This document shows, in pieces, positions 8,133-61,131 of a DNA stretch of 64,000 nt (its first letter is position 1; every line of letters starts with the position of its first letter). The notes under the pieces are model-generated. The model was not told where the DNA came from and ran no database searches. It saw only the letters and a list, made by a program, of their open reading frames with translations. The stretch lies in assembly GCA_947184155.2 (NCBI GenBank), contig CAMXCT020004001.1, positions 1,055,063 to 1,119,062 of the forward strand, read 5' to 3'. The translations under genes and the position numbers were made by a program. The stretch comes from Cladocopium goreaui (taxonomy: Eukaryota; Sar; Dinophyceae; Suessiales; Symbiodiniaceae).

Positions 8133-11100
8133 TCACAGCACTTTTCCATACTTTTCCGGGAAGACGCCGGGCGCGACCTCCTCCCCCAGTGGCAGCGCAC
8201 GCACGAAGTCGTCCTTGTCGAAGCGTTTGGTGAAAGCCAAGACGGCCAGGCGCCGTTGCGTTGGCCTGGCGCCCCCGATGGGAAGATATGGGAACGAAAA
8301 CCTTACTTAACGACTTACCCTCTGGTAAACATACAAAAAACTATAGAAAATCACAATTTTTAATGGGAAAACTCACTATAAATGGTGATTTTCAATAGCT
8401 ATGTTAAATTACCAGAGGGTAACCATCAAAATGGACGGAGATTTCCATCAGAAATTTAGAGGCACTACATGAAGATGATAAATCATGATAAATCATGATA
8501 AATCCATGAATTTCTTTTTAGCGCACATGGGGAACAAAGGATATGGTCATGAAATGGTGTCAAAACAAGGGGATATGCAAAAGCCAGGGTCCTGATGATT
8601 TCGGGCTGTAAGCGCGGATTGTGCCCATCCTTCGTCCTGTTCCCTTGTGAGCCGCTGAAAACAATCAGCATTTCCAGCTTACACATTTGATTCATGCTAC
8701 ATGCATTTAATATTCATGGTTTCGATACATTACAATCTATCAAACACAAATTGGGCCATGAGAATATTCTTTACAAATTGTGGCTTTGGAACTCAAGCTT
8801 TGGTCTCCCTGGCACCCTTCAGCACCCTTCACTGGGCCTGAAGATGCAGCTACACTCAAAGGGTATGTTCTCCAAGGGCACCAAGGGCAAGTGCAAGAGC
8901 TGTTGGCCGCCCAGCGTCATTTCTCCAGTAAAGCCAGCCCAGCTGGAGGTTGAAGCGAAGTGGCTCCCCATGGATTCCTCCGAAGCCCAATGGTCCAAAG
9001 AGTCGTCCCATGGCAGCTTTGACCCAGGATACCCAGGATGGACATGGGCAGCCCTCCGATCATGGCGTTGGGAAAATAGCCCAGGAATTCGATGACTTTC
9101 CTCGAAAAAACCAGCCATTTGATCGCCACATTTGATTGCCCAATAGTTGATTAGCTATATCCAATTATCATCCCATTAAATCCCTGAAATCCCTATCAGT
9201 TGATGGTTAGTTGTCTCCATTTCGGCCATGTCAGCCCCAGTGCGGCTCCCAAGCTTCCCACAGCGCAGGCAACGCTTCTCCATGCGTCCTGTAGGGCGGC
9301 CCCTGCTGCAGCACTTCCCGCAACGTGGCGGGGCTGCTGTAGACGGCGGAGTCCAAGATCAGAGCCGATTCCTAGGGACTGGAGGACAAGCTGAGCCTTG
9401 GCTCATAAACAGCCCCCAAAATCAGCAACTTTATGGTAGTTTGGTTATTTTATGGTACTTCGGTGATTCAACATTATTTATGGCAGTGATTTATGGTTTA
9501 TAAAATGGTCTGTCTAGTGAACTGGGATGGAAAATATGGTGCTGGTGTTTAAGCTGATGAATGGTGACTCTGAAGAGTGCGAGAAAACCAGGGGTCGAAA
9601 CTATACTGGAGTGGACACTATGTTAGGTTATGTCTAAAGATGGTGCTGAAGGACGCAACTTCTGGAGCTGGTATACCGTATACCAATGATTCTAGCCACA
9701 CAGCAGCACCTTGAAGTGTGGCTCGATCACCTTAAGTGGGAGATTTTAGCCAGATAAAAGACTTGTAATCCTGGTAAATTACTTTCACTTATAATATGGT
9801 TGGTGGTTTCAACCCTATGAAACATATTATATAGTCAGTTGGGATTATTATTCCCAATATATGGAAAAATAAAAAATGTTCCAAACCACCAACCAGTAAT
9901 GTTCCATTTACATCCATTGAACATACTTAATCAAACATGGCAATGGAAAATGCCGCACTAATTCGTGATTTCCCCAAAAAACCTTCACTAGGGAAGGCCG
10001 TTCACTTGCTGGTGGCAAATCTTCCACTTTTGGACAAACCTCCGTTTCCCTCATTCACCATTCATTTGTCCATGTCCTGATTCCTCCACTGCCCAACACT
10101 GCCACTGCCACTGGAGGCTCGTAGTTTCCCGCGTCCGTGGCTTCTAAGCCCTCAATGCGGCCGCGAAAGTTCATCGCCTCGGAAGATGACCCTCCAAGGA
10201 AACCACCATCGGAACATGGTTAAAAACATCGACTTTTAGCTGCTTGGTGGTTGAGCCACCCCTCTGAAAAATATGAAAGTCAGTTGGGATGATTATTCCC
10301 AACATATGGAAAAATAACAAATGTTCCAAACCGCCAAACAGTTTAGAGGTGGACACAAATCAATGGGTTTGTCTGAAAATGGGTATTTGCCTCAGATGTG
10401 GTTCATGTACTTTTGGGCACCCCATTTTCGGACTAATCCGATTGCAATCTCAATCGCCATGGACCAGTATATACTGTATGTAGATGATCCAATTATAGTC
10501 ATAACTTATATAACTTATAATCCCATTTGTAGTCCCATGTGCACAAATATTTTGATGGTTGAAGCACCTTGAATTCCAATTCTTTTCGGTCTCTACAAAC
10601 GTGCAATCCGAATGGCCATTGTGTAGGTGCGGGCCTCCGCCATTTTGGCAAGGCCACTCACCAACACATCGTTGCTCGACACAAAGGACACCTGGCTGCC
10701 TTCTGTTGCTGCCGCCTTGGCTGCCTGCAAGCGTGGCTTGTGGTTTAGCCATCCCTTTGGCGATATGGCTACGGGTTTAAAACCAAGACCCAAAGAACCA
10801 CGGATTTTGCTTTGATCAGCTTAGCATTAACATTAAACCATCCAAACTTGATAATTACATATCATGATTTCAAGGATTACATCATCCAATTTCAGAGGCA
10901 AGCAGTCTAATTGTCGAATTAGTATACTTCAACCTCTCAGCATCTCTCAACCTTATCTCAACCTGATGTCCCCGGCCCCGACTTTTTATTTTCATGGCCT
11001 TCATACGGGCGTCGTCCACGTAGAGACACACGGCCCTGGCTTTGGGGCCTCTCAGTGCATCGCGGAGCGCCTTGGCGATCAAGGTGGAGAGCATCCAGTC

Positions 11101-21678: not shown

Positions 21679-24600
21679 CTAACCATATCTAACCATACTT
21701 TTCATGCTTGATGATAATTCCTTGATTCTGAGCCAAGCGTCACTCGTCTCATCCTCACTTTCCTCCAGATCCCAGGTATACAAGGGCGGTTTCACGCAGT
21801 TCACAATGCTGCGTCCCAGAAAGAAAAAAATCGTCAGCGTCACCAGCAGGGCCGTATAGCCTTGGGGATAGGGATTTTTGTATCAACAAACATGGGAAAC
21901 ATGGTGGGTTTAATGGGATTATAATGGGATTAATAATATTGGTGGTGCACCAGTGAGCTAACGTGCTAAGTTGGATTTATTGGGTGAATATAGGTGAATA
22001 ATTTAATTGAATGTTTGGTAGATATGTCGAACTCGTATGAACTAGTTAATGGGTTCTTGTAAGCCAACTTGTATATATGGCTTCCACCACCTTGCACTGG
22101 AAGTATCTAATCATCACTTATATATTTGTCTTCTTTGTTAAAAAAACACTTTCAACATCTGTTCCAATGCATCATCAAGATAGAGGGCAAGATGTGGCAC
22201 AATCTTTGAATCCAACTCTCCAAGGGGTGGCACCATGACCCCATCCACGACGCCAAAAAGCCGATCAGCACCAACGGATATCGCCAATCAATGAAGAAAT
22301 AGAAGAAGAAATGGTACTCCTTGAAGAAGATCCAGGAGAAGATCACCTGGTTGGTGGTGCAATGTGCCCATCTTGAAAAATATGAGTCAATGGGAAGGAT
22401 GACATCCCATATATATGATGAAAAATAAAAATGTTCCAAAGCACCAACCAGTCACATATGAGGCACCATAGTAGAACATGAAGGTCAGATGATAGGTGGT
22501 GATGCAAAGTCGATTTACCAAGGCCTCCACGAACCTTGGTCGATCCTGAGATCCTTCCGGAATCCCAATTCTTACTGCGAAATAATCATTGTGGAACTAT
22601 CTCCTTGTTGTCCTATGCTCACTTATACAGCTGGATTATCTCCTTATGGTCCCAATTCTTAGTTTTAGGAGTTAAAACCCCATTCTGGATGCGGCAAACA
22701 ATATTGCTGCTTGCATATCCCACCAGCCAAAAAGAGTCTGCTTAAACATTCCATAATGATCATATCCCCAGTTTTGCCGCATGTATGTGTATATGTTTAT
22801 GATGATAGTCGTATAGTGTGTGTGTATGTATATATATATTATATATAATATGTATATTTGTGCATACCAGCATATATGCAAGCCTACATAATCATTCACA
22901 TATATATATATGTAAACACATATTGTATGTATGTATATATATATACAATATACCATCTAAAAAAAACACACCATCTCTGCTTCGTCCCATCCCAGCCACA
23001 TGAAGAGGAAATTCAGGTTGTGACAGAAGAGCGCGGGCCAGGTCAGAAGCCCCATGTCGCCACCGGTGGTCTGATAGGCCACTGGCAGCAACACCAACCA
23101 GACCGCCAGGAAGATCAGGAAGGACACGGGGAGCATCACCTGCGGTTGCCCCCCCTGGAAAATGTGGTCAGGCTTGGAATAAGAACTATATGGGAAAAGC
23201 CCAGAAAAATGCATAGAAAAGTATGGAACAGTTGGATTTATATGGATTGATCATGATTTATCACTAGTTTATACTGGGGGGTTGTTTCTTGTCTAACCTT
23301 TTTTTGGGGTTACTATTGGTTAAGGTAGGGTTCAGGGTGATGCAATAGCTATGGACTATAGACTATAGTGAAACGAGGATATCAAGTTATATGTCTACCA
23401 TTACCATAAACTCTAGTTAACCCGCAGATAAAGCACACTATTTTTGGCACCACCCTTAGTGGTACAGTGGCAGCCGTAGAAGTTAGTGGATGGGCCGCCC
23501 AATTCTTAATCAGTGCGGAATTTCCCTAGACCATCAACAAATTTTAGAAGAAAAGGAGGTACCCTTTAGCAATTTAATATATTTATGGTATTTATGAATA
23601 TTTTTAGATACGAGGAAAGTCATGGCAGCTTCAAAATTTCGATGCCCATCCAAAATGGATCAAACGGTTCATCCAAATGATGGGGTTTATCCCACTTATT
23701 CACCACCACAAGGATGGTTGAAACCCTATAAATAATGGGATAGCCTCTAGAAAAATTAACACTTCGACCCTGGCAGTAAGAGTTGGAAGATTAGTGGAAA
23801 CACTAGAACATTTTGTGATTTTCAGGGTCAAACTGTTAATTTACCAGAAAAATAGTGTACCCAAGAATCCTCTGGATTATCATCAGTGTCCCAATTAAAG
23901 TAACCATCTGATCATCTGAGGATACAATATAATGCGGGTACAGTAATACAATAATAAACCACCCATTTGGGAATGGTAAACATACCACCTAGAAAATGGT
24001 GATTTGGGGGATGGTGCGTTTATATGCGTTTATGGCATTGTTTTACCCAGATACCCCCTAGTTCGCATCCATTTATAGATTGATTTTCCATGAAAGAAAC
24101 CATCTGCCGTCCTCGAAGAGCAACCACACCAAACGGCACAACATCGCCGTGCAGCGGCCAGCAGAGCTGGGTTTCCAGTTACCAAAACGGGTGGCCTAAA
24201 CGACAGCGTGGCGGCGTGTTTGTTTCATGGGCGGTCCATTTCAGGAGAAATAGTCCAATCCTATATATATATATATATCAGTATATATAATAGTATATAT
24301 AATAGTATATATATAATAGTATATATATATATTCCAAATTATTCCAATATGTTTGTTTCAGGATAAATATCACCTACCGTTCAATATCATAATGTAGCTT
24401 ATAAACATGTGTGTGTGTGCGAACAACCTGTTGCTGCCCCTTCGAAGCCTTCGGGCTCCCTGAAACCGAAACCGAGCTGCTAAAGTCATGAGACCGCTCA
24501 AGAGCATGTAGAGACCGATCAAGGACCAGCTCCAAATGGTGAACGTGGCAAAGATGATCCAACCACCTGCCAGGCGCGGACCAAAGTGGTGAAGAGAAAT

Positions 24601-27664: not shown

Positions 27665-27771
27665 CTGGTTGGTGGTTGAGCCACCCCTCTGAAAAATATG
27701 AAAGTCAGTTGGGATCATGACATTCCCAATATATGGAAAAATACAAATTGATGTTCCAAACCAGCAACCAG
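27665..27771. mobile_element. CTGGTTGGTGG-family element
   Basis: Ends CTGGTTGGTGG and CCAGCAACCAG; AAATAG on both flanks. Lies in the spacer upstream of the membrane-protein gene. Confidence 0.85.
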
Positions 27772-28715: not shown

Positions 28716-31700
28716 TCAGAAGCCCAGCTGCTGCACGGCGTCTTTGCCCGTGACCAGCTCCGCAGCCACGATACCCAGGATGGCCACCATAGCGAAGCGC
28801 CCGTTGTTCAGCTCCTGGTTGCGCATGTCCTGACGACCGACAGCTTTGACATGTGCAATACACATGACGACATACACACATAATACACATTTATAATATA
28901 CATATATATATATACATACGTAGATATAAAGTAGATTTAAGTTGATATAAAGAAGGTATAAAGTAGTATCATCATTAATATGCATATTCAATCATATTCA
29001 TCTTTATATCCTATATCAATTTCAATCATCAACATCTCCTCATCCCATCCCCCCATCTCCCTTCCGTCCTCGGTGTATTGCTTGAGCCCCAAGGGATCCC
29101 CGAAGTTCCCCGGTTCCTTCGTGGCGTAGTCTTCGCTCCACACGGTGAACTCCAAGAGACCCGCCAGCAGCGACAAAAGCACCAAGCCGAAGCTCCCTTG
29201 GGCAAAACGTGGGGAATGAAAATCATAGTTCACCATCAAAAGAAAGGAACAATCCAATGGATGTGTGTGGATTTCCGTCTATATATAATTATAAATATAT
29301 ATATATTAGATGTGTTTAATGGATTTCTTAGACGGATTTAGAATTTAGCACGATAAAATCATCCAACCATCCGCATGAATGGTCCATGGCATGGCAAACA
29401 CATCATCAAACAAGACATGGATGCATCATGATTGGAACAAGGATAACATAATTGATTATTATTAAATTAACATTGAGGGACCATTGCCTTATAACTTATA
29501 TATCATGATTCAGATGATCAAGTTACCAACCATTGCGAATGAACCAACAAAAGGGGAGCATCAGCGATAATCAACATTGGCATTTTATGGGAGACATCAC
29601 CCAAATTCAGAAACCTTGTCAGGAAAGATAGTTTCCTTCAATTCTGTCATTTTGTCAATGAAGCTGTTGCGTTCTGGGAATGAAGCGGGGATTACAGTAA
29701 ATGGTGGTTTAACCCATGAAGAAACATAGAAAGGTAAAAAGATAGTGGTAAAATCAGACAAGCACGAGGATTAATTACCCTTGGCAATCTAACTTGCGAT
29801 AGGATAGGCTTCCAATCATCAAACATCGGCAATTACGAAAAAAAATCAAAAAATGGTCACAGTGTATCACAGGGTAACATCAACACGAATCCACAAGAGA
29901 TTTCAAGAGATTGCTCATTCATAACTGATAAAACTTTTTAAACCGGAGATAAACCCTCTGGTATTGAACCCTTCAAGTCCACCCTGCCAGAGTTAACCCC
30001 ACGACTCGTAAATGATTGGTGTGTGGCACAGTTTGTGGGGTTAGTTCATCCTTTTATAAATGGAATGACACAAGATTCTAGGACGTCTTTTCATCAGGGT
30101 TATGAACCACTAAGTGACTGGGGCGTAATTTTCCAATCATTTGGGATGGGAACGGGAACATATTCCAGTGATCAGGGCTCAAAACGCTCTGTTATTACCT
30201 TCTAGTTTTTGCTTCAGGATGGGATTTCCCAGTTATGCGATGATGATCATCATCCACCAAGAACATCAAGCAACCACAATTCATCAATGATACCACCTTG
30301 TTTTGCTGGTTGAAAACCATATGTTGCTGGAGCAACCCCCTATAATTAATCATCAACCAACCATCACGTCTTAAGTATATCCTGATATATTCAATTCTTA
30401 CACCCCTTATTCTGGTTATAAGTTATATCATATTCTCATCAAGTAACAAATCAACAGGACTTTAGCAGCCACTGCTCCGCCCAACGCAATCGCCTGGGTT
30501 GTTGAAGGCTGCCATGACCCCCGACGGCATCTCTTCGCCCCATTGGGTTTTTTCGAAGCCCGGGAAGCGCAGAAAGTGCTGCCCCACCGCACCAATTGAT
30601 GCCTCAGTTCAGCCATGGGATCGACCTACGACCGAAAGGCGATGATCATCACCCAAAAACTGGAAATCAAATACATAAACATACATATATAACCATATCA
30701 TATATTTATGTATTTGATTGTCATATCCATAGTATACTGCAAATGGAAAATTGGAATGACATAAACCATAGCAAATCCATGTCATTCCAATCCCACATTT
30801 ACATTTGTGCTGCTTCACATCCAACATTCTAAAAAAAAAACCTCTGGGTATGACTAACAGTTTGCCATGGGATTTCGATGGCCCATAGAAATAGATGGTT
30901 TTTACCTATTAATAGCATGGTGGATCTTTCCATGGCGAAGTGTTAGTCATAACCAGAGGCTAAATCCCCATGAAAAGCATCATTAACCATATAATAACCA
31001 CATATTTACTGTAACCATTATTAACAGTATATATTCCAATTATTTCCAATTAACAGTGTAACCATATTTGTTGGTTCTCTCCCCCTTTGCGCGGCCAGGT
31101 GCCATCATTGCCACGCGGCCATGTTTCAATTCACAGGCGCGGTACTCGCAGAAGGTCTCCTTTCGTTGCAAGGACATTGATAGACTCTCTCTCTCTCTAC
31201 ATATATATATAATTAGATGTAATGATGCGTGTATATTGTATAATATTCAATGTGTATGTGTATATATATATGTTGTTCAGCGTTTATGTAGCATCAGCAA
31301 ACACAGCAAAGTGCTACTGTATCAAAGCAGGTACAAGCACTCAAAACCATTTCAATATCCATGGAAACACTGGATATCACCAACAACGATGTGTGTACAT
31401 TGTACAACTGATGATGGGAAATCCAATGCAATCCATTCAGATTCAAGCGGATATGCAACACCGTTGAAAAAAATAAGATTCCTATCGCTAAATGACGGTT
31501 ACATATACTATAGTAATATACATTAATTAATATAACTTGGGATATTGGGAGAATACCTGGAGTTGGCAATCGATGCAAATCGCCCGAATATTCCCAGGTC
31601 GCGAGCTCTTTGAATTGGAACCTTTGGAAACTTTTGGAACAACGGAACCATCCCAGTTTCTTGAGGTCGTTCACTGAAAACTCCCCCGCCTTGTCTTTGG

Positions 31701-33078
31701 GCGCAAGGCCGATGGGGTCAAAGAATCCCACGGGCGCCGTAACACCAAGCTCCTGGTTCGCTTGGTAAATCGTGGCCTTTCTTTCGACAAAAATGGGTTT
31801 TTGGACAATTCACCAGTGGGATTTTTGATGATTTTTGATTTGATCAATGGATTGGTTTAAGGGAAAATTTACAGGAAAACCCCATATTTAATGGGAAAAT
31901 CTATGGTTTCCAATAGATTTTCCCTTAAACCAAACCATTGATTGGGGTTCGATGTACACTACCTCTGGACTGGCACGAAATCCCAGTGAATTGGATCTGA
32001 TGAGTTTGATGCTGAAACCGGAGCGGATTGATGCAAGCAACAGGCTCCGGGGCCTGGTCACACTAAATGGTTAGGGATATGATATACTGCTTGGTGGTGC
32101 AATAACCATCTTGAAAAATATGAAAGTTAATGGAAAGGATGACATCCCATATATTATGGAAAATTATGGAAAATAAAAAAAAGTTCTAAACCACCAACCA
32201 GATATAAGTATATTTCATGGATTGTGGTGATTATGGGCACATCTAAACATCAATGGTGAGTCCCAGACCAAGATAAGTCAAGATATACTCAAGGGAATCC
32301 CAGGCTGCAACGCCACAAAATGCCAAGACTTCCAGTGCTCCTGGCTGGCTTCCCATGGCGGCTCCACTTTTGGCGGTGGCTTCACCTTGGGTCCCTTGAT
32401 CTCTGGCGACTTCTCCGCGCGAAGACAACTTCGCAGAGGCCGACTTCGCGTGCTGCGGGCTGCGCTAAGGAGGACCTCGAAGGGAAAGGTGACCACCGTG
32501 GGGATGCACCTAAAGGAGAGAAATCCAATCCTTAATGATTGATGAATTGAACCTGTTCTATGCAAATTCTTGGGGTTGTTATAGAATTATGTATATCCAG
32601 GCATATCATGGCATATCTACATGTAAATCGGTTAATTTGGTTTGCAATATTTCAATGAAGGTACAAACTACTGTAAACATCGATGGATGAAGGGGTGATT
32701 TAGTTTGAGTTCTAAATGAAGGCAACTAAATATAGTTACACACACATGAATAGGTGGTTTTGCTCGTTTCAGTAAATGGAGGCAAACAGGAACCATACCA
32801 TATATCATGAATATCAGAAAATGGCTACTACCAGAAGCGATAAACATTTACAAGTCACTCTGGGCAAATGATCAAGTTGTCAGTTGTCCCCCATCAAAGT
32901 TGGCCAGTCTGGGTGTAATTTTCCAACCCATCAACTCATGGTCTCGCCCAGTGACCACCCCGCCAGCCACGGCGCCAATGCCGTGGCCTCTGCAGCCGGG
33001 GCCGGCGCCCACGGGGCCCGGGTGGGGTTGTGGCGCGCTGGGCGCAGCCGCGGCAGAGGAGAGGCTCAAGGCCAACAT
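28716..33078 (-). CDS. Light-harvesting chlorophyll-binding antenna protein (LHC family), seven exons
   Basis: This is a plastid thylakoid antenna protein that binds chlorophyll and carotenoid. Exons (minus strand): 33078-32959, 32475-32350, 31776-31669, 31159-31103, 30602-30494, 29196-29069 and 28829-28716 (TGA stop). All phases join and give about 253 residues. Family marks in order are GVTAPVGFFDPIGLAP, then helix 1 ELKHGRVAMM, then FLRFPGFE and EEMPSGV, then helix 2 LLSLLAGLLEFTVW with EDYATKEPGNFGDP, then helix 3 MRNQELNNGRFAM. The E-x-x-H/N-x-R chlorophyll ligands are present in helices 1 and 3. Donors in order are GT, GC, GA, GC, GC and GA. The two 5'-most exons (Ala/Pro-rich, then basic and Ser/Arg-rich) would form the transit region and are less certain. 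Their ATG has an in-frame TAA upstream. The body of the protein (31776-28716) is near certain. Confidence 0.9.
31848..31944. mobile_element. ATTGGTTTAAGGGAAAAT inverted-repeat element
   Basis: Arms TCAATGGATTGGTTTAAGGG and TTAAACCAAACCATTGA flank a short palindrome. A diverged copy is at 19678-19772. Lies in the LHC region upstream of exon 31776. Confidence 0.65.
32097..32201. mobile_element. CTGGTTGGTGG-family element
   Basis: Ends CTGCTTGGTGG and CCACCAACCAG; ATATA on both flanks. Within an LHC intron. Confidence 0.85.
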
Positions 33079-34114: not shown

Positions 34115-37100
34115 CTTCCGAAGCCTCGCTTGCTCGCTGCCAGCATTGGCCTGGCGCATGGGAAACTCCGAAGTGATTTCGAAATTGATTGTTACTAGTA
34201 ACATCCGGATATTTATATTTATATATATATATATCATATATATATATATATCATATATATATATATCATATATATATATATCATATATATATGACAGTTT
34301 GCCAACTAGTACAAAACTTCTGTCAACTATGTTTGGCAAATGGTCATATAATTATATATATATATTTAAGACTTGAGTATGAAAATCCATGTATTGAATA
34401 TGGATGAATTTGGAAAGTGATCAGATATAGAATGATACGGATAACAAATGATAACAAGGCTTGATCAAGGACATCTTTTGTTGGAAACTGGACACATTTG
34501 TCTATGGAAAACCCATGGGGAAACCCATTTGGAAAAATGATAGAAACGCGTCGGGTGTCCGGTGTCCGGTGACTCATTTAAGGGGCTGGGATGGGCTGGG
34601 AGTATGAAAAATTCCCCCATTACTTGTAGCGAACATGCGTAAAACTCAGCAGTTTCTCTAACCTACCCTCTGGTAAACTGTTACATAACTATGGAAAATC
34701 ACAATTTTTAATGGGAAAATCCACTATAAATGGCCATTTTCAATAGCTATGTTAAATTACCAGAGGGTACCCAAGGTTCACCCAGGCTTCTCAGACATCT
34801 TCAATCTACGATTGTGGACACCTCAATGAGAGCCACAGCAAAGGAAAACTGGTCATAGTAGCATAGTATGTTGTGCTTCTTGCTGGTTCCAGTCCATCAA
34901 AGACAAGCGTACTCCAATCAAAAGGTCCTAAGGAAAATCATTGGAGAGCCAGAGCCTTGGAGCCATACTTGGAGGCATGTTTAGGAACCATCTGCTTTGC
35001 GATTTCGCCTTCAGTCCACGGGTTTCAATATTTAGTATTATATAATGATATATATATATAGTATATAATGTAAATATAAATATACAGTATTTCACTCATC
35101 TGCTCCTGAACTGCTTTCCCTGCCTCGTATTGCGCCTGCGCCTTCCCCTGCAACAGAAAAGACACACCTCTGCCATTCATAGACAAAACAAATAGGCACA
35201 GGATATCACAGGATCGTTTGTAAAACTTCTGCCATTCAATCAGTATAATCAGATATAATCAGTATATGCTATAATCAGATATAATCAGTATCTGCAACAT
35301 TCTGCAACGCAACGTGGACATGTGGCCAGAGCAACATCCTGGTGAACCGAAAAAACCATGGAGGACAATTGCAGCCACAGAATAAAAAGCCTCGGTGATG
35401 ACCGGGTGCTACGTCAGCCAGCACAGTTTTGGTGCTGGACTCGCTTTGATCCAATTCTCTGTGAAAAACAAATTGTGGCTTTGTCTGAAAGCATCGCTAA
35501 ATCCATGGCTTCATCGGATTATGTTCTCTGTTCAACAGCCATTTTGGGGGTGTATCAATTTCCGACACACGAATATTAGGCCATAGCTATGCAAGAGTCG
35601 ACCACCCTGTGTTCGCGTGCCGTGCCTGTTTGTCTTTCATTCTCTGGAAGGACTCAGCACCTGTGGCGAATTGTATAGGTACGGCTCAAGACTCAAGACC
35701 TCCAATCCACAAATGGCGTGGTCATGCTTCGGAGCGAGTAGTAAACATTAGTAAACCATAGTAAACCATCCAATTTTGAGCTCACCAAATGCCTTGACAC
35801 AGTGGCAGATTGGGTGGCTAACTATTGGTGTTTCAATATGTCCTGGACGAAGCTGGGACTCAATCCCGAAAAAAGCGACATGTTTCTTCTCCAAACAAAA
35901 ATGACCATGTTGTCCATTGTCAGAGTTTCAACCGTTATTATAATGCAGGGTTGTATAATATTGTATAATATTGTATAATATGGTATAATTATCCAAAATT
36001 ATCCAAACAGGAAATCTCAACCATGGAAACAAGTCTGGTGAAGTGCTAGTGGTGCAACGTTGCACGGCCACCGTACGCTGCTTCTTGACCCCCCACTGGC
36101 GATTTCGGTTGCCATTTGAAGCTAACCTGTTGTTGGTGTCTCCCCTGATTGGGGGTCAACCCTCTGCGTAGCTCCTTGGCTCCCCATGTAGGGAAGATAC
36201 CCATAGCTCCTCGGCTGCCCTTTAACCACTGGACAGGCTTTGGAGAAAGTGGTGTGAAAACCTACAGTGCATCAGTGCTACGGGGTACCAAGGGTGAACT
36301 ATGAACTCACCAACGGCCCAGTGGATCTTTGCCCAAGGGACGTTGCCGCTCCTGCTCTTCCATCACCGCCTCGGTTTCGAGGGATGGCCAAATGGAATTT
36401 GACTCAAGAAGGGCTCCAAAATGATCCAAGCATTTCGAAGTGTCAGTTTTGTTTACCCTCTGGTAAACTAACATAGCTATTGAAAATTGCCATTTATAGT
36501 GAGTTTTCCCATTAAAAATGTTGATTTTCCATAGTTATGTTAGCTTACCGGAGGGTATCTGCCAGGCATTCATATGAAATCCAGTAATAGTCCTGCAGAA
36601 TTCAAAAAATCGGATCCCCTGAGCCACCGCACGATCTGAGCTTTCATCATCGCAATGTCCTGGTTCGCCGGCCAGGAGACGTAGGGGTCCACAAAAAAAT
36701 GGTGTTAAACTAAGAAACATGATCTTTTTGACCAAAAAAGCAGTTTTATCCAATTGACCAAAAAAAAAGGTTTTATCCAGGGAAAATTTGGGAGCAACAT
36801 ATAAGAGTAGAGCATGGTAGAGCTTAATCAGCAAAATTGGGATTTGATTAGTAAAGCATGCTGTTAGTGTCAATCCATTCCAAAAATACCACTTTGGTCC
36901 AGGGGGTAGCAATCGGGTACTGTAGAATCAATCCAAAAAGAGTTTCTAAAATTGTAATTTGCACTTCCCAAATGGGTCAAAGTTGGCTGGTGCTACACAA
37001 ATGCCTGGGAATAGAACACCCTGGACTTCGTATAGAACATGTTGCAACCTACTACAGTTGCATTGATGCTTTCGGACTAGACTATTGCTGTGAATAGTTG

Positions 37101-50056: not shown

Positions 50057-50162
50057 CTGGTTGGTGGTTTCAACCCCTCCGAAAAATATGAGTTCGTCAG
50101 TTGGGATGATGAAATTCCCAATATATGGAAAAGTAATCCAAATGTTCCAAGCCACCAACCAG
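50057..50162. mobile_element. CTGGTTGGTGG-family element
   Basis: Ends CTGGTTGGTGG and CCACCAACCAG; ATAT on both flanks. A TACCCTCTGG-family element starts 27 bp further right. Confidence 0.85.
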
Positions 50163-61036: not shown

Positions 61037-61131
61037 CTGGTTGGTGGTTTCAACCCCTCTTAAACATATTAGTCAATGGGAAGGATTATCCCATATATTA
61101 TGGAAAAAAAATGTTCCAAACCACCAACCAG
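61037..61131. mobile_element. CTGGTTGGTGG-family element
   Basis: Ends CTGGTTGGTGG and CCACCAACCAG; ACAA on both flanks. Confidence 0.85.

Follow-up and report, generated by a model that had tools for sequence, protein, structure and literature searches.

Can a short DNA element that lands in an exon become an intron and leave the coding sequence of the gene intact? The origin of new introns is a long-standing question, and it is raised by a locus in 64,000 nucleotides of Cladocopium goreaui DNA (the window, by which we mean the whole stretch analysed; G000:C4001:1055063-1119062, from an assembly of 1.166 Gb in 6,202 contigs). Here a 105-bp element with inverted-repeat ends, together with a 4-bp duplication, fills the whole gap between two exons of a conserved gene for a membrane protein, and the coordinates given for the element in the initial annotation were reproduced. 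The exon borders, at 22456 and 22346, were also as claimed. The features at the locus, with the basis of each, are:

23000..23139, minus strand: exon VMLPVSFLIFL...NLNFLFM, acceptor CCGCAG/G, donor GTGGCT (fitted by eye to homologues)
22456..22534, minus strand: exon FVEALVNRLCITTYHLTFMFYYGASY, upstream of the introner (homologues and translation after splice removal)
22452..22455, minus strand: upstream GTGA of the 4-bp target duplication, source of the GT donor (sequence)
22347..22455, minus strand: predicted intron of 109 nt, GTGACTGG...CAACCAG (nine homologues contiguous at the junction)
22347..22451, minus strand: the introner itself, 105 bp in sense orientation to the gene, reading CTGGTTGGTGC...CACCACCAACCAG on that strand (nhmmer E 9.4e-23)
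22343..22346, minus strand: second GTGA copy, which opens the next exon, CCAG/G at the acceptor (sequence)
22262..22346, minus strand: exon VIFSWIFFKEYHFFFYFFIDWRYPLVLIG, which follows the introner and is itself followed by a GC donor (sequence and homologues)
21736..21860, minus strand: the exon after that, GYTALLVTLTIFFFLGRSIVNCVKPPLYTWDLEESEDE... (start placed with the help of homologues, end approximate)

The insert in the membrane-protein gene

The left end of the element is an exact CTGGTTGGTGG and the right end, GCACCAACCAG, has one mismatch. On the plus strand it is flanked by TCAC/TCAC, that is GTGA/GTGA on the coding (minus) strand, where the locus reads TAT/GTGA-CTGGTTGG...CCAACCAG/GTGATC. 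Deleting the 109 nt gives FVEALVNRLCITTYHLTFMFYYGASYVIFSWIFFKEYHFFFYFFIDWRYPLVLIG and the protein ...FYYGASY/VIFSWIFF....

Nine of 12 homologues, 46-81% identical, are contiguous at the junction (Y/V or Y/L), so that excision would, as proposed, restore the coding sequence. Two more, P0006 and P0012, end short of the junction, and the remaining one, P0009, has an insert of 37 residues there that is a recognisable translation of the same element. Relatives of the membrane protein include the model Skav200067 (71% identity), whose prefix presumably stands for Symbiodinium/Fugacium kawagutii. When the joined peptide is searched against this assembly, the matches are the window's own two exons only, and the homologous proteins are contiguous. 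The joined protein matches no family in Pfam, and the window has no match in Rfam.

P0009 is an open reading frame on another contig (ENA, 431,485 bp), where the insert sits at the same codon, is 111 nt long and has no stop; being free of stops, it is read as protein by a gene caller. One could argue from this frame, which continues through the insert, that the window gene is a pseudogene or that the insert is part of the protein. However, the window insert, if retained, brings a stop 22 codons in and a frame shift, the exons on either side are open, and none of the nine contiguous homologues has such an addition. Further, P0009 begins at the window's in-exon GTG codon and continues into the window's intron sequence, a pattern that suggests a mechanical gene call. 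We therefore give this reading almost no weight.

P0009 also bears on the age of the insertion. The initial annotation described a snapshot of intron birth by an introner; the intron birth is supported, but a very recent date is not, because P0009 has a like insert at this very position on a different contig, so that the insertion is common to the window and at least one other sequence.

The borders of the neighbouring exons, fitted to homologues, are a donor GTGGCT after FLFM and an acceptor CCAAG/G before FVEAL and, further on, a donor GC after VLIG and an acceptor CCCCAAG/G before YTALL. The fitted gene has both GT and GC donors, and every acceptor obeys AG/G. In a related genus 96.1% of introns end in AG/G (PMC9412976, in excerpt). 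The rule is obeyed in the window gene and in the kinesin gene described below.

A kinesin gene and the proposed mechanism

Further support for the mechanism comes from a kinesin gene on contig C3546, where the duplication is GTTT. Searching genome-wide for the kinesin family yielded 104 exon matches, among which neighbours contiguous in the profile were then sought. Of ten gaps, three of 117-122 bp and seven of 146-207 bp, the three shorter ones were read. One of the three (C3546:287420-287547) is an introner element in sense orientation (nhmmer 7.1e-19), and the other two (L068, L069) are unrelated sequence.

The kinesin insert is a 124-bp element with GTTT on both sides, AACAAGA-GTTT-CTGGTTGG...CCAACCAG-GTTT-GAGTGCC. 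Taking out 128 nt gives SGQTLKEGANINKSLSALGNVINALVEI and rejoins the conserved NINKS/LSALGNVINAL; this case thus sits in a highly conserved kinesin motif. The joined peptide is matched by 75 distinct solved-structure sequences at E<=0.001, of which the best 3 of 75 are gapless across the junction.

We propose the following mechanism. With its terminal inverted repeats CTGGTTGGTGG/CCACCAACCAG and its target duplication of 4 bp, the element would be a small DNA transposon of the non-autonomous kind, presumably moved by a transposase encoded elsewhere. In sense orientation it has a pyrimidine tract and a site resembling a branch point, and it ends in CCAG, which can act as acceptor. Should it land in an exon at a target starting with GT, the upstream duplicate would serve as donor and the downstream duplicate would place a G after the acceptor. 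The spliceosome would then remove one target copy together with the element, and the original coding sequence would be back.

That the element is an introner, and that the inserts in the window gene and the kinesin gene made introns via a duplicated GT target, we hold with a probability of roughly 0.93. Two unrelated genes have the same element anatomy, a target duplication and a conserved protein that is restored on removal, and in both the element is in sense orientation. A donor from the duplication and an acceptor from the element, as first suggested, fits the protein conservation, the stop-containing and frame-shifted retained form and the kinesin case; that splicing occurs, and at these sites, we infer from sequence. 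Of the features that characterise introners, many copies of which some are whole spliceosomal introns are indicated by two unrelated genes and tens of thousands of copies, and the restoration of coding sequence on removal by protein conservation across both junctions. A published mechanism thereby gains clear cases in conserved genes.

Counting against the mechanism is an earlier internal AG past the branch-point-like site, TTTTTCAAG in the window and TTTTTCAG in the kinesin gene. Splicing might use TTTTTCAAG and not the terminal CCAG, as it is the first AG past the branch-point-like site, the A of which lies at a median of 40 nt before the element end. In the window, however, 25 nt would then stay in the mRNA and shift the frame, against a conserved protein without insert, and in the kinesin gene the conserved motif also demands the terminal CCAG. 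Use of the internal site is accordingly very unlikely, and it is protein conservation alone that argues for the terminal CCAG.

Five copies preceded by GTGA were fetched, two of them with GTGA on both sides. At one locus (L066, on C551) GTGA on both sides is combined with a coding-like open frame across the element, which makes it a possible third exonic case with putative exons. Three short open reading frames were found as relatives: two enter the same element and the third begins to, then diverges. Since all three run, or start to run, into the same element, they lend no independent protein support, and the L066 peptide matches no family in Pfam.

The element family and its targets

The seven other copies in the window, all recognised by sequence and profile match, are:

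9796..9896, minus strand: family copy, flanks TAAT (coding signal not on both sides)
10240..10341, minus strand: family copy, flanks TTTAG
27665..27771, minus strand: family copy, flanks AAATAG
32087..32201, minus strand: family copy, flanks ATATA
50057..50162, minus strand: family copy, flanks ATAT
61037..61131, minus strand: family copy, flanks ACAA
63719..63828, minus strand: family copy, flanks TAA (3 bp)

These copies exist as annotated, with exact flanking repeats of 3-6 bp; the length of the duplication is, however, 4 bp. Because coding sequence on both sides is lacking for 7/8 window copies, we see the family as a general repeat of MITE-like kind, in which copies that turned into introns are the minority. 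The copies at 27665 and 32087 lie on either side of exons resembling a light-harvesting protein gene (28719-31788, minus strand), where PF00504 (chlorophyll a/b-binding) matches at about 28719-28856, minus strand, and two other pieces have no Pfam match. This domain, the relative Skav200067, the GT and GC donors and the long one-way runs of genes all fit a photosynthetic dinoflagellate near Symbiodiniaceae.

Genome-wide, CTGGTTGGTGG occurs 41,655 + 41,594 times (83,249), versus 349 + 368 (717) for the reversed pattern. The size of the family is about 67,000 judged by matches per exact end in a 264-kb stretch (C4001:855063-1119062, window included) and about 106,000 judged by density, both rough figures.

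We compared 46 complete copies, 17 from the 264-kb stretch and 29 from pieces of contig C2 picked by exact ends; 14 of 60 matches were left out as incomplete or too close to the end of a piece. As in MITEs, the copies are short (95-126 bp), with inverted ends and a target duplication; their median pairwise identity is 77%. On the sense strand the consensus is CCCaACTGAC...TCATATTTTTCAG with a terminal CCAG. The motif [CT]TGAC is found in the second half of 41/46 copies and TTTTC with AG within two bases in 40/46, while a terminal CAG is present in 44/46, a figure biased upward by the 29/46 picked by exact ends.

The flanks of these copies settle the length of the duplication. It is exact at 4 bp in 17/46 copies versus 1.02 expected from mispaired flanks, and for other lengths the column matches are near background, so a duplication of 3-6 bp is rejected. 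In the window, the 5- and 6-bp repeats probably owe their extra length to chance, and the 3-bp repeat is probably a duplication that has decayed. Position 2 of the flank favours T (right 35/46, left 25/46) and G is rare at position 1 (right 4/46, left 1/46), hence most targets would not already provide a donor. The intron-forming copies would then probably be the minority that struck a GT site and were retained.

Two further observations concern the flanks. A T-rich stretch lies 8-10 bases downstream of the element in the set of 46. Three copies (L037, L039 and the one at position 104599 in the C4001 stretch) have, in place of a plain 4-bp duplication, direct repeats of 14-16 bp that are offset from the element by 1-10 bases in total. 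Such repeats are not supported as the general form of the duplication; they occur in 3/46 copies versus 0.2% of mispaired flanks with at least 12 bp, so the three are unexplained.

Several known systems resemble this one. DNA-transposon introners in Micromonas pusilla and Aureococcus anophagefferens, whose target duplications help to form a splice site, were reportedly described by Huff and co-workers in 2016; their duplications are said to have lengths other than 4 bp, and the hosts are different from ours. The introners of Symbiodinium microadriaticum, as given in a figure legend (Gozashti et al. 2022, PMC9860276, Fig. 2B legend), match feature by feature: the 4-bp duplication, the inverted-repeat ends, the 3' splice site of their own and the 5' splice site from the duplication are all present here. 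This likeness is one of description. The introner elements of Amoebophrya, also of the dinoflagellate lineage, share inverted repeats and the capacity to form hairpins, and have direct repeats of 3-5 nt at the exon borders (Farhat et al. 2021, PMC7789003, in excerpt). In contrast to the one family-wide repeat and GT-AG borders seen here, the same excerpt says that many of the Amoebophrya elements use non-canonical splice sites and lack an inverted repeat specific to their family.

Orientation of the copies

The unexpected part is the orientation. All eight window copies share one orientation, sense to minus-strand genes. In the 264-kb stretch the first 170 kb holds 15 matches, all forward, and the last 70 kb holds 9, all reverse, in step with two gene blocks of opposite direction. 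Some of these 24 matches are partial, and 35958-36022 and 36069-36146 may belong to a single interrupted copy.

Gene direction in this stretch was taken from a self-trained codon model seeded with three window exons (score at least 8, low complexity removed). In the first 180 kb, 88/98 coding segments are on the plus strand, and after 200 kb 27/29 are on the minus strand; the seven segments at 180-200 kb are mixed. By eye, some of the plus-strand segments resemble mobile-element genes. Pfam matches agree with the blocks: DnaJ on the plus strand, ankyrin and light-harvesting on the minus strand. The region about 170-200 kb into the stretch is a convergent boundary between a plus and a minus gene block, and the orientation of the introners switches there too.

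The pieces of C2 hold 37 matches over 1.2 Mb in two runs, 3 forward and then 34 reverse. Coding fragments are few and weak there and give a mixed picture of gene direction, which weakens the case: L032, L036 and L043 agree with the local introner run and L011, L033 and L044 disagree, while locus L034 lies between the two runs. Using a 25-base forward-strand pattern, neighbours on a contig have the same orientation in 62 cases and the opposite in 4 among the first 100 of 4,960 matches listed, and all of those less than 50 kb apart are the same (34/34). With eight further listed copies the counts become 67 same and 6 opposite; both extra opposites come from one antisense match on C20, a truncated fragment that abuts another MITE and whose right end is absent from the 241 bp fetched. 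For later contigs among the matches listed, 23 are the same and 3 opposite, with 9/9 the same within 50 kb.

Elsewhere the kinesin matches, together with codon patterns that mark ankyrin repeats and kinases, gave the direction of genes. The gene strand agrees with the nearest listed introner on 9/10 contigs, at distances of 5-193 kb. The exception, which also weakens the case, is C18: two kinesin matches there are on the other strand from the nearest introner listed, at a distance of 118 kb.

Such a strand lock is not a general property of repeats in these blocks: a self-comparison, counts per family and a genome-wide control MITE were all mixed. The control, CTCTGGTAAAC...GTTAAATTACCAGAGGG, is about 110 bp long and near-palindromic and has thousands of copies in the same regions (6,409 exact 27-mers in the genome, 86 linked intervals in the 264 kb). 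It differs in that its orientation is mixed relative both to the gene blocks and to the introner. Among the first 100 of 6,409 matches listed, its neighbours are 29 same and 48 opposite, and relative to the nearest introner the count is 25 to 24 among the matches listed.

What causes the lock can be stated only tentatively. One possibility is that a DNA-type transposon goes in nearly always in the direction of transcription, which would lock its copies to unidirectional blocks even away from exons. If true, insertion would be coupled to transcription or nascent RNA, and the DNA- and RNA-based models of intron gain would be joined in one element. We consider it about equally likely that insertion takes place in both orientations and that antisense copies harm the transcript and disappear, so that neither account reaches even odds. 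Such selection is consistent with the branch-point-like site and pyrimidine tract on the sense strand. Block direction also matters for expression, since transposon genes that break it are reported unexpressed in a related genus (PMC9412976, in excerpt). On the other hand, the lock holds though a coding signal on both sides is lacking for most of the copies in the 264 kb, and the control MITE, of similar size and in these same blocks, has mixed orientation; it is these two facts that make us lean slightly towards an insertion bias. Further, a sense copy within an intron would give it a second acceptor, which might make sense the harmful orientation, and the one antisense match read inside a run, that on C20, is a truncated fragment.

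Sense-only placement is also what an RNA route predicts, in which an excised intron reverse-splices into nascent transcripts and is then copied back, leaving all copies transcript-sense, a prediction that would fit the 264 kb, the C2 runs and the listed neighbours. However, the inverted repeats and a 4-bp duplication that varies from copy to copy are signs of DNA transposition, a reverse-spliced intron would bring its own donor bases and duplicate nothing, and duplications such as TTAT and ATTT are impossible from splicing at GT. We regard this route as very improbable. In the lock, inverted ends and a duplication, the marks of a DNA-type element, thus go together with a placement in sense only, as an RNA route would give.

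If the lock is mechanistic, intron gain here would be tied to the direction of transcription, and intact copies could mark the strand of gene blocks in unannotated DNA. The intron-making step is already published; that the lock extends to copies away from exon junctions is, as far as we have found in print, new. A literature search gave no paper on the sense or antisense orientation of introners, and the excerpts of the introner literature examined hold no statement on the orientation or placement of copies outside introns; prior mention is possible in both cases. Where a method is given in those excerpts, introners were sought in annotated introns (PMC9860276, PMC7789003, PMC11453091, PMC10522408, PMC10666404, PMC7245778), and the intron search in S. 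microadriaticum allowed similarity in the same and in the opposite orientation (PMC9860276, in excerpt).

Finally, contig C1 (L001-L008), of more than 5.2 Mb, has 55-62% G+C in eight loci and nine introner ends among the matches listed; it is probably a bacterial contaminant in the assembly.
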